64,000 bases of DNA from Gloeobacter kilaueensis JS1 (GTDB lineage Bacteria > Cyanobacteriota > Cyanobacteriia > Gloeobacterales > Gloeobacteraceae), in contig NC_022600.1 in the NCBI RefSeq assembly GCF_000484535.1, forward strand, positions 2,728,001 through 2,792,000. The letters run 5' to 3'. Positions within the stretch are counted from its first letter, which is position 1. Every line of letters begins with the position of its first letter. Below, piece after piece: positions 450-25,952 of the stretch. A model generated the notes under the pieces. It did not search any database, was not told where the DNA came from, and worked only from the letters and a program-made list of their open reading frames with translations. A program made the translations under genes and the position numbers.

Positions 450-3226
<2,777 letters not shown>

Positions 3227-3290
3227 ACACGCTGCCGGTTACATCAAATTCGTAACCGGCCCATTGGTGGTCTACTTGTTGACTTGTTAC

Positions 3291-3314
3291 GTCACTATGC
3301 AGTTTTCAAGGTGC
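3291..3314 (-). other. 23S processing stem, 5' arm
   Basis: On the plus strand this reads GTCACTATGCAGTTTTCAAG plus GTG. The same sequence with one change is found in reverse complement at 398-421, so in the precursor RNA the two arms pair across 23S. Confidence 0.75.
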
Positions 3315-3383
3315 TGATTTTTTGCAGATCCCCAAGGTAGCATATTGCTCTCGGGAACGCAATTGGAAGCTTTCGCTCCAGAG

Positions 3384-3459
3384 TGGTGGAGACAAGCGGA
3401 CTCGAACCGCTGACCTCCTGCGTGCAAAGCAGGCGCTCTACCAGCTGAGCTATGCCCCC
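3384..3459 (-). tRNA. tRNA-Ala (anticodon TGC)
   Basis: The minus strand folds as a 76-nt tRNA: acceptor GGGGGCA, D-arm AGCTCAGCTGGTAGAGC, anticodon loop TTTGCAC with anticodon TGC, T-arm GGTTCGAGTCC, and an encoded 3' CCA. It sits in the 16S-23S spacer after tRNA-Ile. The neighbouring tRNA-Ile does not encode CCA. Confidence 0.97.
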
Positions 3460-3469
3460 AAACCGGATG

Positions 3470-3543
<74 letters not shown>

Positions 3544-3579
3544 AAAATCTGTAGCCTCGCAGCTACGAAGCCGAACCGC

Positions 3580-3595
3580 GAATAGTTTGAAAGCC
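3580..3595 (-). other. 16S processing stem, 3' arm
   Basis: Plus-strand GAATAGTTTGAAAGCC. Its reverse complement pairs at 15 of 16 positions with the arm upstream of 16S (5260-5275). A further CGAG/TTGT match extends the helix beyond an internal loop. This is consistent with an RNase III stem around 16S. Confidence 0.7.
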
Positions 3596-3679
3596 ACAAA
3601 CTCGTCGACCTAGGATACCGGACATCCTCGACCGCATACACATTCCGAAGTGCGGTTCAGGAGGAGCCGGGGGTCTCCC

Positions 3680-5167
<1,488 letters not shown>

Positions 5168-7944: not shown

Positions 7945-8030
7945 GCTTTTGTAAAAGAGCTAAACCCGAATCTCTGGTCGGGACTACACCTGAGGCAAGG
8001 GTTTTAATCCCGTGACCAAGGGAGGCTGTC

Positions 8031-18898: not shown

Positions 18899-20953
18899 AT
18901 GGCCCCTGCCTGGAACTTCAGAAGCGCTTTTATCAGCCTTGAACCCGAGGTCCGCGCCCGGCTGGGCGAATACGCAGCCGGGGTGCTGGCCGCTCGCGGT
19001 ATCCGTGATCCCCATGCTATCACCGCCTTTTTGAAACCCCAACCCTGCCCACCGCTGGATACGATCAACTGGCCGCAGCTTGACGCGGCCACCGAAAGAA
19101 TCGTCACTGCAATCGCCGAGAACAAAAAACTACTTTTGACCTGTGACCGGCGCTTTGAGAGCCTGGTTGCAGCAGCACTGCTGCTCGATGCTCTGACTGC
19201 CGCCGGCGCGGACAGTCACTTTGTCCGCGACCCTCAACAGTTCGTAAACCAGGAACACATTGCTTCTCAAAGTGGGCCGACAGCCCTGGAGATCCGTATC
19301 GGGGGCGTTGCAGACACGATCTCTGGCGCGATCGTCCTGGAGGCGTGCCTCGGCCCGCTGGCGGATGCGGACGCCAATCTATTGCTCAATCCGCTGCAAC
19401 TGGAAGCATCTGTGCTCTGGCGGCACCTGCCGGAGGTGGGTCTGGCCTGGCTGCTCGCCGCCTCCGTGCTCACCCGCCTCGGTCGCTCCCAGGCGATAGC
19501 GAGCCAGTGGGTGGATCTGGTGCTGGCCGGTTGTGTCGCTGGGCTGGCCTCGCTTGAACACTGCCGGAATTTCGTGCTGGCCGGGCTGGCCCAGCCGGGC
19601 AGCGTGCGCCGTTCACCGCTGGATAATCTAATCGAGCGCTATCGGGGACAGCTTTTTAAGATCGCTTTTCCACTGGACGCTTTGAGCTATCTGGACGATC
19701 CGGCTGAGGCGGTGCAGTGGCTTTTAGGAGAGCCGTCGGTGGCCTGCTGCGAAGCCTTTGAGCGCCACCGGCTGGAGCACCAGCGGCAGATCGAAGCGGT
19801 TCTTCAGCAGGCGACGGCCCTCATCGAGCAGTTGGATCCGGCAGGGCGGCGCGAGCTGGTGCTCAGCCATCCCCGCTGGCCTTACCCGGTACTGCGGCTG
19901 GCGGCGGCGCGCCTCGCCGGCCGTTACCGCTGCCCGGTGGTGCTCATCACCTGTCCGGAGGAGTCGTCCCTTGCCTGCGGTTACGGCTACGCCCAGGACG
20001 TCGATCTGATCGCTGTCTTTGAAACCCTTGCTCCCTTGCTGGTGAGGGCGGGGGGCCAACCGGGGAGTGTGCGCTTCAGCTGCAAGAAAGAACACCTGGC
20101 GAGCCTGTGCCGGGCGCTGACACAGCAGTTGCAGCGCTGCACCGCTCCTGATCGCGATCACAACAGCGCTGCGATCGTGCTCGATGCGGAGACGATTCTT
20201 GATCTGCCGGCAGAACTCGATCGCCTCTTTCGCGAGGTCGAGCGACTAGCGCCCTTTGGTCCAGGCCAGCCCCGGCCCCTGGTCGCGCTGCGCAACTTTC
20301 GGCCCCAGTGGAGCCTGTCGCGCGACGGTCGCCACCTCGACTGCAAACTGGGAGCGCGCACGCTGAGGTGGCCTGACGGCGGCGATCAGCGCCATCGCTG
20401 GCAGCAGGAGCACCTGGTCGATCTCGTCTTTGAGCTGGAACCGTGGGAGGCGACGCTCTGGTGGGGCTGGATTCATCACCTGCAACCAGCTGAGCAGCGC
20501 ACCACAATCGAGGAGGAGACAAGCAGCCGCCGGTCGGTGCAGATCGAGGACTTTCGCCGCCTGGAGGCCAGCTTCTCGGAGTCGCTGCCTGCTCTGGTGC
20601 TGCGCCGCTGGCCCTGCTCAGCTGCGGAACTGGCGTCCCAACTGCAGCAAAGCCCCTGGCCAACGGTCGTTCTAGCCGGTCGCAGCGACGACTGGTCTCG
20701 ATCGCGCGGCTGGATTGTCGAGCTGTCCCGCCGCTGGCAGGCGGGGATGCGCGATCGCGAGGCACTCGAACTGGCAGGATTGCCGGGGCCGCTGTTGGAG
20801 CGGATTCTCGATTGGGCCGCCGCCGGTGGCGATCTCGTTCAGGGGGCGACCGCCATCTTGCAGGAGGCACGCGCCTTTCAGCACTGGCTGGACACTGCCC
20901 CAGCCGCTGAGATTGGCAGCCTGTGCGACCGACTTTTAAGCGGCGATGATTGA
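18899..20953 (+). CDS. RecJ-like protein with lost DHH catalytic motifs
   Basis: A 684-residue protein whose order of motifs follows RecJ: a helical N-terminus, then LLLTCDRRFESLVAAALLLD at about 78-97 where RecJ has the aspartate-rich DYDVDG motif, and IVLEACLGP at about 145 where RecJ has the DHH motif. LLLNPLQ, EVGLAWLL, DLVLAGCVAGLASLEHCRNFVLAGL, DALSYLDDPAEAVQWLL, RHRLEHQRQIEAVLQQA and RLAGRYRCPVVLIT match later RecJ blocks. The metal-binding acids are therefore largely missing, so a 5'-3' ssDNA exonuclease activity is unlikely. The next gene, a helicase relative with weak motifs, overlaps it by 8 bp, suggesting a stable pair. A structural or DNA-binding role is my inference; standard RecJ should be elsewhere in the genome. 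Confidence 0.75.
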   Translation: MAPAWNFRSAFISLEPEVRARLGEYAAGVLAARGIRDPHAITAFLKPQPCPPLDTINWPQLDAATERIVTAIAENKKLLLTCDRRFESLVAAALLLDALTAAGADSHFVRDPQQFVNQEHIASQSGPTALEIRIGGVADTISGAIVLEACLGPLADADANLLLNPLQLEASVLWRHLPEVGLAWLLAASVLTRLGRSQAIASQWVDLVLAGCVAGLASLEHCRNFVLAGLAQPGSVRRSPLDNLIERYRGQLFKIAFPLDALSYLDDPAEAVQWLLGEPSVACCEAFERHRLEHQRQIEAVLQQATALIEQLDPAGRRELVLSHPRWPYPVLRLAAARLAGRYRCPVVLITCPEESSLACGYGYAQDVDLIAVFETLAPLLVRAGGQPGSVRFSCKKEHLASLCRALTQQLQRCTAPDRDHNSAAIVLDAETILDLPAELDRLFREVERLAPFGPGQPRPLVALRNFRPQWSLSRDGRHLDCKLGARTLRWPDGGDQRHRWQQEHLVDLVFELEPWEATLWWGWIHHLQPAEQRTTIEEETSSRRSVQIEDFRRLEASFSESLPALVLRRWPCSAAELASQLQQSPWPTVVLAGRSDDWSRSRGWIVELSRRWQAGMRDREALELAGLPGPLLERILDWAAAGGDLVQGATAILQEARAFQHWLDTAPAAEIGSLCDRLLSGDD

Positions 20954-22910
20954 ATCGGTGATTGGCTGGCCCCGAGGGGGACTTACCGCCGCCTGTCTGG
21001 CACACTACCGGCAGCTTCTGGCAGCAGGCGTTCTTGCGGATCGGATCGTCTGGATCGCTCCTAACCAGACCCAGGCCGCCCAGACCATCGTCCAACTCGA
21101 AGCGCAGCTGGAAGGACTCGCCGGGCCATTGCGCGTCGAGACGTTTTATAGCTTTGCCAACCGGATGCTGGCTGAGTTCTGGGGCGAAGTTCTGGAGCAG
21201 GAGCCAGAATTGCCGGCGAGCTTCGAGCCGCCCATCCTCGATCAGGCCCAGATGCGCTACTGTGTCGAGCGCGCCTGCAGCCTCTGCCCGGATCACGGAG
21301 CCCTCTTCGAGGCGTGCGGCCTCAGCGACGAACGCCTCTGGGATCAAATAGCGAGCGCCGCCTGGGTGGCGAGCACTGCCGGGATTGCCATCGAGGCGAT
21401 CGGTAACCGCCTGCGCAGTGCCTGGCCCGATGGGGAGGACGAGCAGCGTCTGGCGCGACTTGCTGCCATCAGCTGCTGCGGGCGGCGCACCCGGCAGGTT
21501 GTCCTGGGAGCGGGTGCCCTCGACGCTGGTCTGGTCGTCGAACTGTTTGGCCGGGTGATCAACGATCTGGAGGCGTTCTGGCAGGATTTTGATCACCTGA
21601 TTATCGATCGCATCGAGGACAGCAGCGCCGTCGCCCTGGAATTTTATCGGCGCTCCGACGAGCGCCAGAAAGCACTGTTTGTCGCCTATACCGTCGGTAG
21701 CGGCGTCGGACTCTATACGGCCCTCCCCCGCAGTGCCGCCCAGTTTGTGGCCCGGCGGAGCCATTTTCGCTATCTACCGGCACCAGCGGACGCCAAGCAG
21801 CAGGCGATGCGCCGGCTGGCAGACCGCATCGCCCGCCAGATCGACCCGCAGTTTAAAAACCCGCTACCGGTGCAGGAACTGGCCTCTGCGGCCCTGCCGG
21901 TGCTTATCGAGGCACAGACTACTGTCGAAGCAGCGGAGGCGATGGCCGGGACCATCCAGCAACTGCTCAAACAGAACGTGCCCCCCGACCGCCTGGCGAT
22001 CGTTGCACCGCTTACGGACATGGGGCTGGTGAGCGTTCTTGAAGCGGCCCTGGATGTGCCTGTACAGGTGCCGCGCAGCCACACTGCTCTGGTCCGCCAC
22101 CCGCTGGTGCGGGCTCTGCTCAGTGCCCTCGAACTGGCTCACCCGGAGTGGGGGCTTTTTCCGAGCTTTGGTGAAGCCCGCCTGATGCTCGGTCTGCTCC
22201 TCGGCCTCGATCCGGTGCGCGCCGAGTTGCTGGCTGCCGACGGCCTCGACCCGGTGGGCCGCTGTTTGCGGGGGCGCGATGCGGTGCGCTATCCCGAGCG
22301 CATCGGCTTTGCTGCGCTCGATCGCTATCAAAACCTTGTAGACTGGCTCGACCTCTACCAGCAGGGCTCAGCTCTGCCGCCGGACCATCTCTGGAGCACA
22401 TTCGCTTCCGATTTACTGTCTGAGGTGCTCACAGAACCCGCCGACTGGCAGCTCCTTCAAGAACTGATCGCCATCGTCCGCCGCTTCCGCCGGACATTCT
22501 GCCAGATTCAGCCGCGTGTCCTCCTCCACCTGCTGCGCTCAGGCCAGGTGACCCGGCCCAGCCAGCGCCTTGCCCCCGGCAGGCTCGTGCTCTCCACCCC
22601 GCTCACCTTCATCAACCAGGGTCTGGCCGCCGATTACCAGTTCTGGTTCGACATCACCTCCGAGCGCTGGTCGCGCTCAAGCTGGCGCGGGCTCTACAAC
22701 CACCGCGTCCTCACCCCAGAGTGGGACGGCACACCCTACGGAGCTGCACACGACCGCGAGGACCGGGCCTTTCGCCTCTCGCGCACCCTGTTCAGCCTCT
22801 GCTGCCGCACCAGCGCAGGGCTGTATCTGGTGCGCTCCAGCCTCGGGGCGCGCGGCGAAGCGAATACCGGCCTGCTCGATCAGCAGATCCTTACAGCAGC
22901 CCGCCCGTAG
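20946..22910 (+). CDS. UvrD/RecB-like helicase relative with degenerate ATPase motifs
   Basis: A 654-residue protein whose start ATG overlaps the end of the RecJ-like gene by 8 bp. The N-terminus (GWPRGGLTAACLAHYRQLL at 7-25) sits where superfamily 1 helicases have the Walker A loop GxxGxGKT, but the lysine is replaced. RIVWIAPNQTQA, ETFYSFANRML and FDHLIIDRIEDSS match motifs Ia, Ic and II in layout, although motif II has lost the DExx glutamate. DRLAIVAP and VPRSHTALVRHPLVRALLSALEL resemble the C-terminal helicase half. It is likely an inactive, AddB-like scaffold rather than a motor. No nuclease motif was seen. The family assignment rests on motif order. Confidence 0.65.
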   Translation: MIESVIGWPRGGLTAACLAHYRQLLAAGVLADRIVWIAPNQTQAAQTIVQLEAQLEGLAGPLRVETFYSFANRMLAEFWGEVLEQEPELPASFEPPILDQAQMRYCVERACSLCPDHGALFEACGLSDERLWDQIASAAWVASTAGIAIEAIGNRLRSAWPDGEDEQRLARLAAISCCGRRTRQVVLGAGALDAGLVVELFGRVINDLEAFWQDFDHLIIDRIEDSSAVALEFYRRSDERQKALFVAYTVGSGVGLYTALPRSAAQFVARRSHFRYLPAPADAKQQAMRRLADRIARQIDPQFKNPLPVQELASAALPVLIEAQTTVEAAEAMAGTIQQLLKQNVPPDRLAIVAPLTDMGLVSVLEAALDVPVQVPRSHTALVRHPLVRALLSALELAHPEWGLFPSFGEARLMLGLLLGLDPVRAELLAADGLDPVGRCLRGRDAVRYPERIGFAALDRYQNLVDWLDLYQQGSALPPDHLWSTFASDLLSEVLTEPADWQLLQELIAIVRRFRRTFCQIQPRVLLHLLRSGQVTRPSQRLAPGRLVLSTPLTFINQGLAADYQFWFDITSERWSRSSWRGLYNHRVLTPEWDGTPYGAAHDREDRAFRLSRTLFSLCCRTSAGLYLVRSSLGARGEANTGLLDQQILTAARP

Positions 22911-23559: not shown

Positions 23560-23605
23560 GGGTACAATGATCGCTGCAAGCCTCTTGCTGGAGGGATTTG
23601 CGGTC

Positions 23606-24907
23606 ATGACCACTCCAAGGAAACCTAATAGCACTGTCCCTTTCGTAGATCAATACTGTTCCACTTACCAACACCTGTTTGCAGACGTCCGAACTTTTGA
23701 ATGCTTCAAAAGCTTGCAACTCGGGTTAGTTTCCGAGGTCAAACGCAAAACTCTGCCCGCGATAGCCAGAGCAGTGGGCGCAGACGCTCAGGCTTTTCAT
23801 CACTTTTTGGTCCACTCTCCCTGGTCGGTTGAATGCTTTAGAGAACAACGAATTGCACTGACCAAGCAAGCACTGAACGGACGCTCTATCACCGTTTGCA
23901 TTGACGAAACTGGCGACAAGAAAAAGGGAAAGAAGACCGACTATGTCTCCCGACAATACATCGGCAATGTCGGCAAAATAGATAACGGCATTGTTTCCGT
24001 TCATGCCTTCGGTTTGCTGGGGAATATCACCTTTCCATTGCTATTCAGGGTTTTCAAACCCGAGTGCCGTCTTGCTAAAAACGAACAGCACAAGAGTAAA
24101 CCCAAAATCGCTGCTGATTTGATTGATGAGTTATGTGAGCAGGGGTTCAATATTGGTCTGGTAGTAGCGGACAGCCACTATGGAGAAAGTAGCGATTTTA
24201 TCAACACTTTGTGGAAACACCGACTGCACTATGTCGTTGCTATCCGCTCCAATCACGGGGTGTGGATGCTCAAGGGTTGGGTTGTTCGTCGCAATCGCTG
24301 GAAAAGCTTCGAGCGTCAATTCAGTAATGGCAAGACAGAAACACGCTACATCCGCGAGATTATTTTTGGCAAACGCAAGGCAACGCGATACTACGAGATC
24401 ACGACGGATATCGAGAAACAGCCCGAGGAAAGTACCTGGTATATCATGACCAATCTGCCTGGAAAAATTGAAAAGACGGTAGGCAATTTGTTTGGAGATA
24501 GAACCTGGGTCGAGTACGGTTTTCGTCAGGTGAAAGCGGAACTAGGCTGGACGGACTACAAGTTGACAGCTTACCGAGGCATCGAGAAGTGGTGGGAGAT
24601 GGTGTGCAGTGCCTACTTAATGGTGAGTATGCAAACAACGACGATGGGAGAAGAATCAGAGGAAGAGGTTCCTGACAAAGCAAGCGAGAGTCAGCGTTAT
24701 CCTGCAATGTACACCACCCATAAGTGGTGGGATGAAAAACAAGGATGGAAGGCGATTTTGAACAACATGCGACTGATGATTCAGCCATTCGTTTGCTTGA
24801 GTTTATTATTGCCGTGGCTAGAGGTGACCCAGTTGAATGACCTTGGAAAAGTACTCCAGAATCTAATAGACAAAGTCAATGGTTTTGCAGTCTTCCTCCG
24901 ACTTTGA
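23606..24907 (+). CDS. IS701-family transposase
   Basis: A 433-residue DDE transposase. The catalytic acids are probably the Asp of CIDETGDKKKGKKTDY (about 95), the Asp of LVVADSHYGESSDF (about 190) and the Glu of WVEYGFRQVKAELGW (about 305), in the order and context of IS701 enzymes. The C-terminal region IEKWWEMVCSAYLMVS matches the family's usual hydrophobic end. Start at ATG 23606 follows GCTGGAGGGA at good spacing; an upstream ATG (23567) would add 13 residues. The gene lacks stops or frameshifts, so the enzyme is probably active. The stop codon falls inside the right inverted repeat. Confidence 0.93.
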   Translation: MTTPRKPNSTVPFVDQYCSTYQHLFADVRTFECFKSLQLGLVSEVKRKTLPAIARAVGADAQAFHHFLVHSPWSVECFREQRIALTKQALNGRSITVCIDETGDKKKGKKTDYVSRQYIGNVGKIDNGIVSVHAFGLLGNITFPLLFRVFKPECRLAKNEQHKSKPKIAADLIDELCEQGFNIGLVVADSHYGESSDFINTLWKHRLHYVVAIRSNHGVWMLKGWVVRRNRWKSFERQFSNGKTETRYIREIIFGKRKATRYYEITTDIEKQPEESTWYIMTNLPGKIEKTVGNLFGDRTWVEYGFRQVKAELGWTDYKLTAYRGIEKWWEMVCSAYLMVSMQTTTMGEESEEEVPDKASESQRYPAMYTTHKWWDEKQGWKAILNNMRLMIQPFVCLSLLLPWLEVTQLNDLGKVLQNLIDKVNGFAVFLRL

Positions 24908-24917
24908 CAGATTAGGG
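24901..24917 (-). repeat. Right terminal inverted repeat of the IS701-family element
   Basis: ACTTTGACAGATTAGGG, next to target repeat CTAA at 24918-24921. It overlaps the transposase stop codon. Confidence 0.9.
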
Positions 24918-25436
24918 CTAATTCACAAAACCCAAACCAGGAGTGCCCCTCTCGCCTTAACTCCTCGGATTTCACGAGCACAGCTGCTAGAATAGCCAGA
25001 TCATAAGGTTTGAGAGAAAGATCCATTGCGCCAATTGTTATCTGACGCTCCAGCATTGGTTCTGAGAGCGGAAAGATATTGAGAGCAGAGTTCCGTGTTA
25101 AGTAAGCTAGCCGCTCTGAAACTTTCTTCAATTCGTTCTCAACGAGCATATCAAATTGCTCGAATATCCGAAACGCCGCATCCGAATCCGCCCTACTAAT
25201 TCGGCGCTCATCCCTTGCCCATTTGACAAATTTGCGGAAGTCCTCCGAACGGGAGCGTGGAGCGAAGCGTCGTGGTATCGTTTCACGTGCCTCCGCCAGG
25301 CATATTGCAGGAATACATAATATAAACTCACCGGTAGTAGCACGGGAGAGGAGCTGAACAGCTTCTGGGCTCTGCAGATGGGCAGGGGCAACAACATCGA
25401 CCACCCAATTGGTTTCAACAAAGACTGCCCGAGGTT

Positions 25437-25952
25437 TCACCTCCCGGATCTACTCCATCTAGGACCAGCAGATCTGATGTCGCCTAGCCGAAGCAAATTA
25501 ATAATTGATTCACTGAAAAGCTTTCTCAGATCATGGGGCAGATTTTCTACATTGGAGGAAAGTTTTAATTCTTCGAGCCAGCGCTGAACACGCACTTCAA
25601 ACTCGTATTCCCCTTTCCATCGTTCATCCACAGGCGGCAGCAAAGAATCTGGCAGTTTTGCCTCACCAACAATATCAACAGACTCACCATTTGACTTTTC
25701 TAAAGAGTCGCGAAGAAGAATAATCCGTTGGCCAAACACAATGAGTCCAATTGAGCAACCGATAGAAGCCATAAGGTGTTTGAATTGATCGATAGCATTC
25801 TGATTGTGCAGGTCACTGTCGCTGAGCTTTACCTCAACAACTATTAGATACTCCCCGTCTGGGCTGACTACGATAATATCTGGCCGGGCTGTTTTCATGA
25901 TCGTGTTGTAGTTTTGTCTGATAACGTTGAGGACAATCTGGTACCGGAGCAT
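25437..25952 (-). CDS. PD-(D/E)XK-like nuclease protein paired with PIN gene
   Basis: A 171-residue protein. RPDIIVVSPDGEYLIVVEVKL (about 24-44) gives the PD...ExK pattern of restriction-endonuclease-fold enzymes: a leading Pro-Asp, then a beta hairpin and Glu-x-Lys. The rest is mixed and ends with a helical tail. The stop TGA overlaps the PIN gene's GTG by 4 bp, so translation is probably coupled. Two nuclease folds in one unit suggest a toxin-antitoxin-like or defence module, but which partner is toxic cannot be told. The ATG at 25952 is the first ATG after an in-frame stop about 17 codons upstream. Composition is slightly AT-richer than its neighbours. Confidence 0.65.
   Translation of the reverse strand: MLRYQIVLNVIRQNYNTIMKTARPDIIVVSPDGEYLIVVEVKLSDSDLHNQNAIDQFKHLMASIGCSIGLIVFGQRIILLRDSLEKSNGESVDIVGEAKLPDSLLPPVDERWKGEYEFEVRVQRWLEELKLSSNVENLPHDLRKLFSESIINLLRLGDIRSAGPRWSRSGR

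Follow-up and report, generated by a model that had tools for sequence, protein, structure and literature searches.

Why should a genome retain, side by side and in overlapping reading frames, two long genes whose products resemble DNA-processing enzymes stripped of their catalytic residues? The question is raised by a window of 64,000 nucleotides (the whole stretch of DNA analyzed here, positions 2728001-2792000 of the 4,724,791-bp single-contig genome of Gloeobacter kilaueensis JS1) that carries on its plus strand a gene for a RecJ-like protein of 684 amino acids (aa; P0001, 18899..20953) and a gene for a superfamily 1 (SF1) helicase-like protein of 654 aa (P0002, 20946..22910; a member of the pseudohelicase family that we denote B). 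Both frames are open and share 8 bp (ATGATTGA, 20946..20953, plus strand), an arrangement indicative of translational coupling. The initial annotation of this locus described two catalytically decayed enzymes that selection keeps together, comparable to AddB and CDC45, and its description of the frames and their overlap proved accurate. The results presented here suggest that the pair probably represents the scaffold or guide half of a four-part end-processing module resembling AddAB, AdnAB and RecBCD, which appears to be nuclease-free in Gloeobacter (here, the genus of the window). The other half would consist of a UvrD-like helicase (HEL) and a small PD-(D/E)XK protein (NUC; PDDEXK_1, a separate open reading frame (ORF) of ~270 aa).

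The relationship of P0001 to RecJ is apparent from a profile match to TIGR00644 (E=5.8e-32; 110.7 bits, not reaching the curated cut-off of 396.9 bits), from matches to the solved RecJ structures 2zxo and 5f54 (E about 1e-11 to 1e-12), and from a retained RecJ_OB region, the oligonucleotide/oligosaccharide-binding (OB) fold that binds single-stranded DNA (ssDNA), at residues 442-514 (20222..20440, plus strand; Pfam PF17768, E=6.9e-6, below the curated cut-off). What P0001 lacks is the Asp/His two-metal site of motifs I-IV. In D. radiodurans RecJ, the ligands are Asp79, 81 and 83 (motif I), Asp135 (II), His159 (III) and Asp223 (IV), and alanine at these residues almost abolishes activity (PMC4846377). 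In the alignment, the corresponding plus-strand positions of P0001 read CDRRFES in motif I (residues 82-88, 19142..19162; GDYDxDG in active RecJ), RIG in motif II (DNG), LEACLGP in motif III (residues 147-153, 19337..19357; TDHHxLP) and VAGLASL in motif IV (19535..19555; VADLAPL), where the metal-ligand Asp has become Gly. One Asp and one Glu in motif I are the only remnants of the ligands, and the other species of the genus are similarly altered (TADRFES, AVG, IEAR, VAGL). Judged from these replacements, P0001 is a nuclease-dead RecJ paralog, as the initial annotation had read it from the first and third motifs. That it might still cut DNA by way of a reconstituted metal site finds some footing in the Asp and Glu left in CDRRFES and in the poor structural model of P0001 (a single-sequence fold with a predicted local distance difference test score (pLDDT) of 38.6, which leaves the metal-site question to the sequence). 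However, the motif II Asp, the motif III His and the motif IV Asp are all replaced, the same residues are those whose change to alanine almost completely inactivates the D. radiodurans enzyme (PMC4846377), and we saw no sign of a substitute site in the sequence, so that this possibility is exceedingly improbable.

The canonical RecJ encoded in the same genome retains intact metal-site motifs, as does every aligned RecJ outside Gloeobacter and one further genome, G298. The P0001 homologs of G177, a member of a different order, and of G298 form one clade with P0001, and along this clade the decay of RecJ can be traced stepwise in the alignment: the G177 protein is fully intact (GDFDCDG, VDCG, TDHH, VADV), the G298 protein has kept most of motif I and lost motifs II and III, and the Gloeobacter proteins have lost nearly all ligand positions. 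Separately, a 138-kb contig classed as viral (L283, IMGVR_UViG_3300042309_002578) encodes a RecJ that is 45% identical to cyanobacterial RecJ.

The gene pair, its 8-bp overlap and the lost motifs were all found again in three further species of Gloeobacter (the overlap reads ATGNNTGA in these three and is present in four of four), and because of this recurrence the motif decay reflects neither chance nor sequencing error. Within this set of four species, which includes that of the window, the ratios of nonsynonymous to synonymous substitution rates (dN/dS) obtained by the Nei-Gojobori method (NG86) were 0.20-0.32 for P0001 and 0.24-0.27 for P0002, compared with 0.30-0.46 for NUC, 0.12-0.22 for HEL and 0.22 for canonical RecJ; pairs that include the species of the window are near saturation (dS 0.9-1.9), and the closer trio weighs most. 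P0001 and P0002 are under purifying selection in the four species. The copies of P0001 in the genus are about 50% identical, and in sliding blocks of 40 residues the identity peaks at 80% in the OB region (residues 441-480) and is low, 28-40%, across the former motifs I-III (residues 41-200). A reader might conclude that both genes are turning into pseudogenes under relaxed selection, given that dN/dS of P0001 and NUC somewhat exceeds that of HEL, that copies of P0001 from different species of the genus share only about 50% identity and that the B gene of G177 contains an in-frame TAG. We consider this very unlikely because the frames are intact in four species, with no frameshift in any of them, the overlap is kept, and dN/dS stays well below 1 with dS up to about 1.4. 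The assertion that selection keeps the decayed pair together thus stands, with gene order and lost motifs conserved in all four species.

Profile searches placed P0002 in no Pfam family and gave no credible match to NCBIfam. Among 16 members of family B, Pfam named just one (UvrD-helicase, plus one AAA_22), none of the tested members was named by NCBIfam or PADLOC, and the curated AddA, AddB, RecB and RecC models did not match B. An AlphaFold2 model of P0002, built with 44 relatives (pLDDT 75.5, predicted template modeling score 0.70), was more informative: in a fold search of the PDB, residues 1-642 aligned to UvrD, Rep, PcrA, AdnB, AddB and RecB chains, and RecC chains were also among the matches. 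The fit to AdnB has Z of 20.6-22.9 and a root-mean-square deviation (rmsd) of 5.0-5.4 across 534-576 residues, and that to AddB (chain residues 2-681) has Z of about 18.7 and rmsd of about 6, whereas UvrD, Rep and PcrA produce slightly higher Z with rmsd mostly of 8-12. Among the full-length matches, helicase-nuclease subunits are therefore the lowest-rmsd fit to the predicted structure, in accord with the earlier choice of AddB for comparison. The motor site is another matter. In the alignment, the Walker A position reads GWPRGGLT, without the Lys (residues 7-14, 20964..20987), and the motif II position reads IDRIED (residues 220-225, 21603..21620; both plus strand), where true helicases have DExxD and most cyanobacterial relatives ADDVDDYP, just as the initial annotation had reported for an SF1-like protein. 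P0002 accordingly has neither the Walker A Lys nor the DExx motif II of active UvrD/PcrA, and combines a predicted SF1 helicase fold with loss of motifs I and II, as expected of a non-motor subunit of AddAB, AdnAB or RecBCD. Walker A is intact in most B relatives (GxxRSGKT), and the Lys is absent from B of Gloeobacter, G298, G044 and G041, the latter two being among the operon-bearing genomes described below.

Two observations on individual B genes may be added. The B gene of G177 is full-length, 47% identical, except for the single in-frame TAG (L080, about 8022-8024), which could be a sequencing error, a mark of a recent pseudogene or a site of readthrough. The B gene of G282 (L008) is adjoined downstream by a DnaX-like gene with an apparent intein (ORF at 2998-4419 in reverse-complement coordinates).

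The partners of family B emerge from gene linkage. In profile scans, B, HEL, NUC and RecJ form an operon in four deep-branching genomes (G021, G026, G041 and G044), B-HEL-NUC occur together in two more (G050 and G013) and B-HEL in another two (G298 and G007), and B and RecJ are divergent neighbors in G053. The HEL gene that comes directly after B in G298, G050, G044 and G041 encodes an intact UvrD-class helicase; next in line are NUC, in the last three of these genomes, and then RecJ, in G044 and G041. In genomes of family f32, B and HEL are fused into one protein of ~1290 aa, with the short PDDEXK nuclease gene adjoining (fusion genes at L166:5720-9586, L167:5905-9762, L168:3831-7715 and L095:2732-6580); the carriers of the fusion are small-genome relatives (1.5-2.3 Mb).

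We further surveyed 139 genomes of the cyanobacterial class, counting relatives of B at E below 1e-140; the genome counts for B, RecC and HEL were tallied manually from the lists of matches. Strong B matches are present in 100 of the 139 genomes and strong HEL matches in 99, of which 98 also have B, so that the two co-occur in 98 of the 101 genomes holding either (B without HEL in G118 and G131, HEL without B in G207). RecC (PF04257) was detected in 35 genomes, all of family f20, and in none of the class genomes together with B; neither protein was found in G085, G151, G207 and G241. Outside the class, G053 possesses both. The RecBCD content of f20 fits what has been published on the marine genera Prochlorococcus and Synechococcus, to which recBCD are chiefly confined, the set being incomplete in well-studied models and recBC missing from both Gloeobacter strains (PMC5101192). 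As for a possible Chi-like site, the HIP1 palindrome GCGATCGC occurs 4 times in the window compared with 3.3 expected and is thus not enriched there, unlike what has been reported for many cyanobacteria.

In the genome of the window, HEL is encoded at 1559156-1561234 on the minus strand (65% identical to HEL of G298) and overlaps at its end with the frame of NUC (pair at 1558372-1561288), about 1.19 Mb away from P0001-P0002. Since HEL-NUC sits at this second locus, no part of the module is missing from Gloeobacter; the genes are divided between the pairs RecJ-B and HEL-NUC. The HEL motifs are intact (AVPGSGKT as Walker A, DESQD, GDPNQS, THRAKGLE, LYVAITRA), and the pairing of B with an active UvrD-class SF1 motor is indicated by genetic, not physical, evidence; against the AddA model, HEL scored 80.5 bits, the cut-off being 707.65. 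The Gloeobacter NUC, for which BLAST gave nothing, was found beside HEL with PF12705 and a profile built from the operon NUCs. It is a separate polypeptide, not a nuclease domain fused to the helicase subunit as in AddAB, AdnAB and RecBCD. Its catalytic-site sequence is VQLHRL and IVQWDT in the window's genome and THLNRL and AFIWNT in G296, the only two of the 25 aligned proteins, both from Gloeobacter, to have lost the catalytic H, D and DxK; the remaining 23, that of G177 included, keep the upstream His, the conserved Asp and DWK or DYK. Two further PDDEXK_1 proteins encoded in the window's genome, L200 and L201, were considered as the NUC ortholog and rejected: their motifs are intact, they are not beside HEL, and they match the operon-NUC profile much more weakly. 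The alignments thus point to the loss of active sites in two unrelated nuclease folds, encoded at two loci, in the Gloeobacter lineage, with the frames remaining open. With both nucleases and the ATP site of the pseudohelicase evidently dead, HEL would be the sole remaining motor of the module.

The gene trees bear on whether the four parts belong together. In the tree of B, G177 and Gloeobacter (along with G298) form a clade with 100/100 support, and each of the quick trees of HEL, RecJ and NUC, built without bootstrap, unites G177 and Gloeobacter, plus G298 if it is represented, in a supported clade, whereas HEL of other genomes of the Gloeobacter order falls in a separate group. Transfer or inheritance of the four parts as a set would be in keeping with a functional unit. 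The double inactivation appears to have arisen late in the Gloeobacter lineage and not to be a property of the family as a whole, because outside the genus the RecJ partner mostly looks active and B mostly keeps Walker A. An inactive complex of just two proteins, as originally proposed, is upheld in so far as the decayed homologs are retained together and AddB and CDC45 were aptly chosen for comparison, and falls short in that the pair would be half of a module that includes HEL and NUC. One could still regard the pair as an independent inactive scaffold, serving canonical RecJ or SSB for instance, untied from HEL and NUC; only P0001 and P0002 adjoin in the window's genome, HEL-NUC being about 1.19 Mb off, and all four parts are dispersed in G177. 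Such independence is difficult to reconcile with the B-HEL fusion and the operons, the near-perfect co-occurrence, the common clade in all four trees and the parallel decay that a single lineage shows at the active sites of NUC and RecJ, and we deem it unlikely.

Several observations weigh against assigning the pair to a four-part module. Most cyanobacteria carry the parts at scattered loci. RecJ is tied to the module by its operons in four genomes, by its divergent position next to B in a single genome and by the pairing in Gloeobacter, and in the tree the operon RecJs belong to another subfamily than P0001. No NUC ortholog was found in G298. The window's genome encodes the intact PDDEXK_1 proteins L200 and L201 and an intact canonical RecJ, so that nuclease activity could be supplied in trans. 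Finally, the exclusivity with RecC may reflect a single replacement in one family, that is, one evolutionary data point.

The module could also be imagined as an anti-phage or DNA-uptake (competence) system instead of a repair machine. HEL matches the PADLOC GajB models, albeit generically, as any UvrD helicase may, and Synechocystis is reported to be transformed more readily once RecJ is deactivated (PMC7690421). Nevertheless, PADLOC gave no match for B or the Gloeobacter NUC and only a weak Cas4-like match for the intact NUC of G041 (E=2.7e-4), and the module is mostly single-copy, nearly universal outside one family in a housekeeping-like manner, and complementary to RecC, all of which makes a defense or competence role rather improbable.

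Returning to the four-part end-processing module, its closest parallels are instructive. AddAB of Bacillus likewise joins an SF1 fold with degenerate motifs (AddB), which is not the motor, to an active motor of the UvrD class, and the entire length of P0002 can be aligned to the helicase-like part of AddB. The differences are that P0002 has no C-terminal nuclease, the nuclease being a separate polypeptide that is apparently dead in Gloeobacter, that the motor has no fused nuclease and that RecJ is part of the module gene cluster. AdnB of mycobacteria is the best low-rmsd match of P0002 among helicase-nuclease subunits. Unlike B, however, AdnB is the active motor of its complex, and nuclease domains are present in both subunits of AdnAB. 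In the RecC subunit of RecBCD, the helicase is dead and so is the PD-(D/E)XK domain, which guides ssDNA (PMC1185551), and B and NUC of Gloeobacter show both losses; however, B has no sequence-level match to RecC, B and NUC are separate proteins, and RecC and B are mutually exclusive in the class. With CDC45 and the inactivated archaeal RecJ homologs, P0001 shares a RecJ fold that has lost its metal ligands and is kept beside helicase machinery, although the motor is SF1 and not MCM, and P0001 derives from a bacterial RecJ paralog inactivated independently of CDC45; the likeness is an analogy, P0001 having been aligned with bacterial RecJ only. Judged by its sequences, the module is built like AddAB and RecBCD, yet is a member of neither by curated models or domain fusion.

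From gene linkage and motif loss, we infer a complex and its function. In the ancestral form, HEL would unwind the duplex end and B would hold, scan or clamp the single strand in the manner of AddB and RecC, with NUC and RecJ trimming the strands. The Gloeobacter version would most likely be a nuclease-free end-unwinding helicase driven by HEL, in which the dead RecJ (CDC45-like) and the dead NUC (similar to the RecC hoop) may guide or protect the separated strands, with trimming left to other nucleases in trans, such as canonical RecJ or other PDDEXK_1 proteins. There is precedent for each role: the dead helicase domains of AddB and RecC serve as Chi scanners (PMC4824097), the dead nuclease domain of RecC is an ssDNA hoop (PMC1185551), and inactivated RecJ homologs are thought to be structural parts of replication complexes (PMC3307487).

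In the immediate neighborhood of the pair, an ORF of 446 aa that resembles a transposase, by eye of the IS4 kind, lies directly downstream (window 23567-24907), and beside it are two adjoining minus-strand ORFs (window 24781-25952) that by eye resemble PIN and endonuclease proteins.

A broader proposition, which we put forward tentatively and with rather less confidence than the assignment of the pair itself, is that most cyanobacteria use an AddAB-like B-HEL-NUC-RecJ system instead of RecBCD, and that Gloeobacter converted it into a nuclease-free four-subunit helicase with a dead RecJ and a dead PD-(D/E)XK protein as strand guides around one SF1 motor. Within open-access papers, we found no description of such a module. 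Given the published distribution of recBCD (PMC5101192), a near-universal, unannotated candidate helicase-nuclease provides a direct list of genes for testing how most cyanobacteria process double-strand ends. Gloeobacter would offer an experiment of nature: a single module has apparently been deprived there of two unrelated nuclease active sites but retains its scaffolds and motor, which would make it a counterpart in bacteria of RecC and CDC45.

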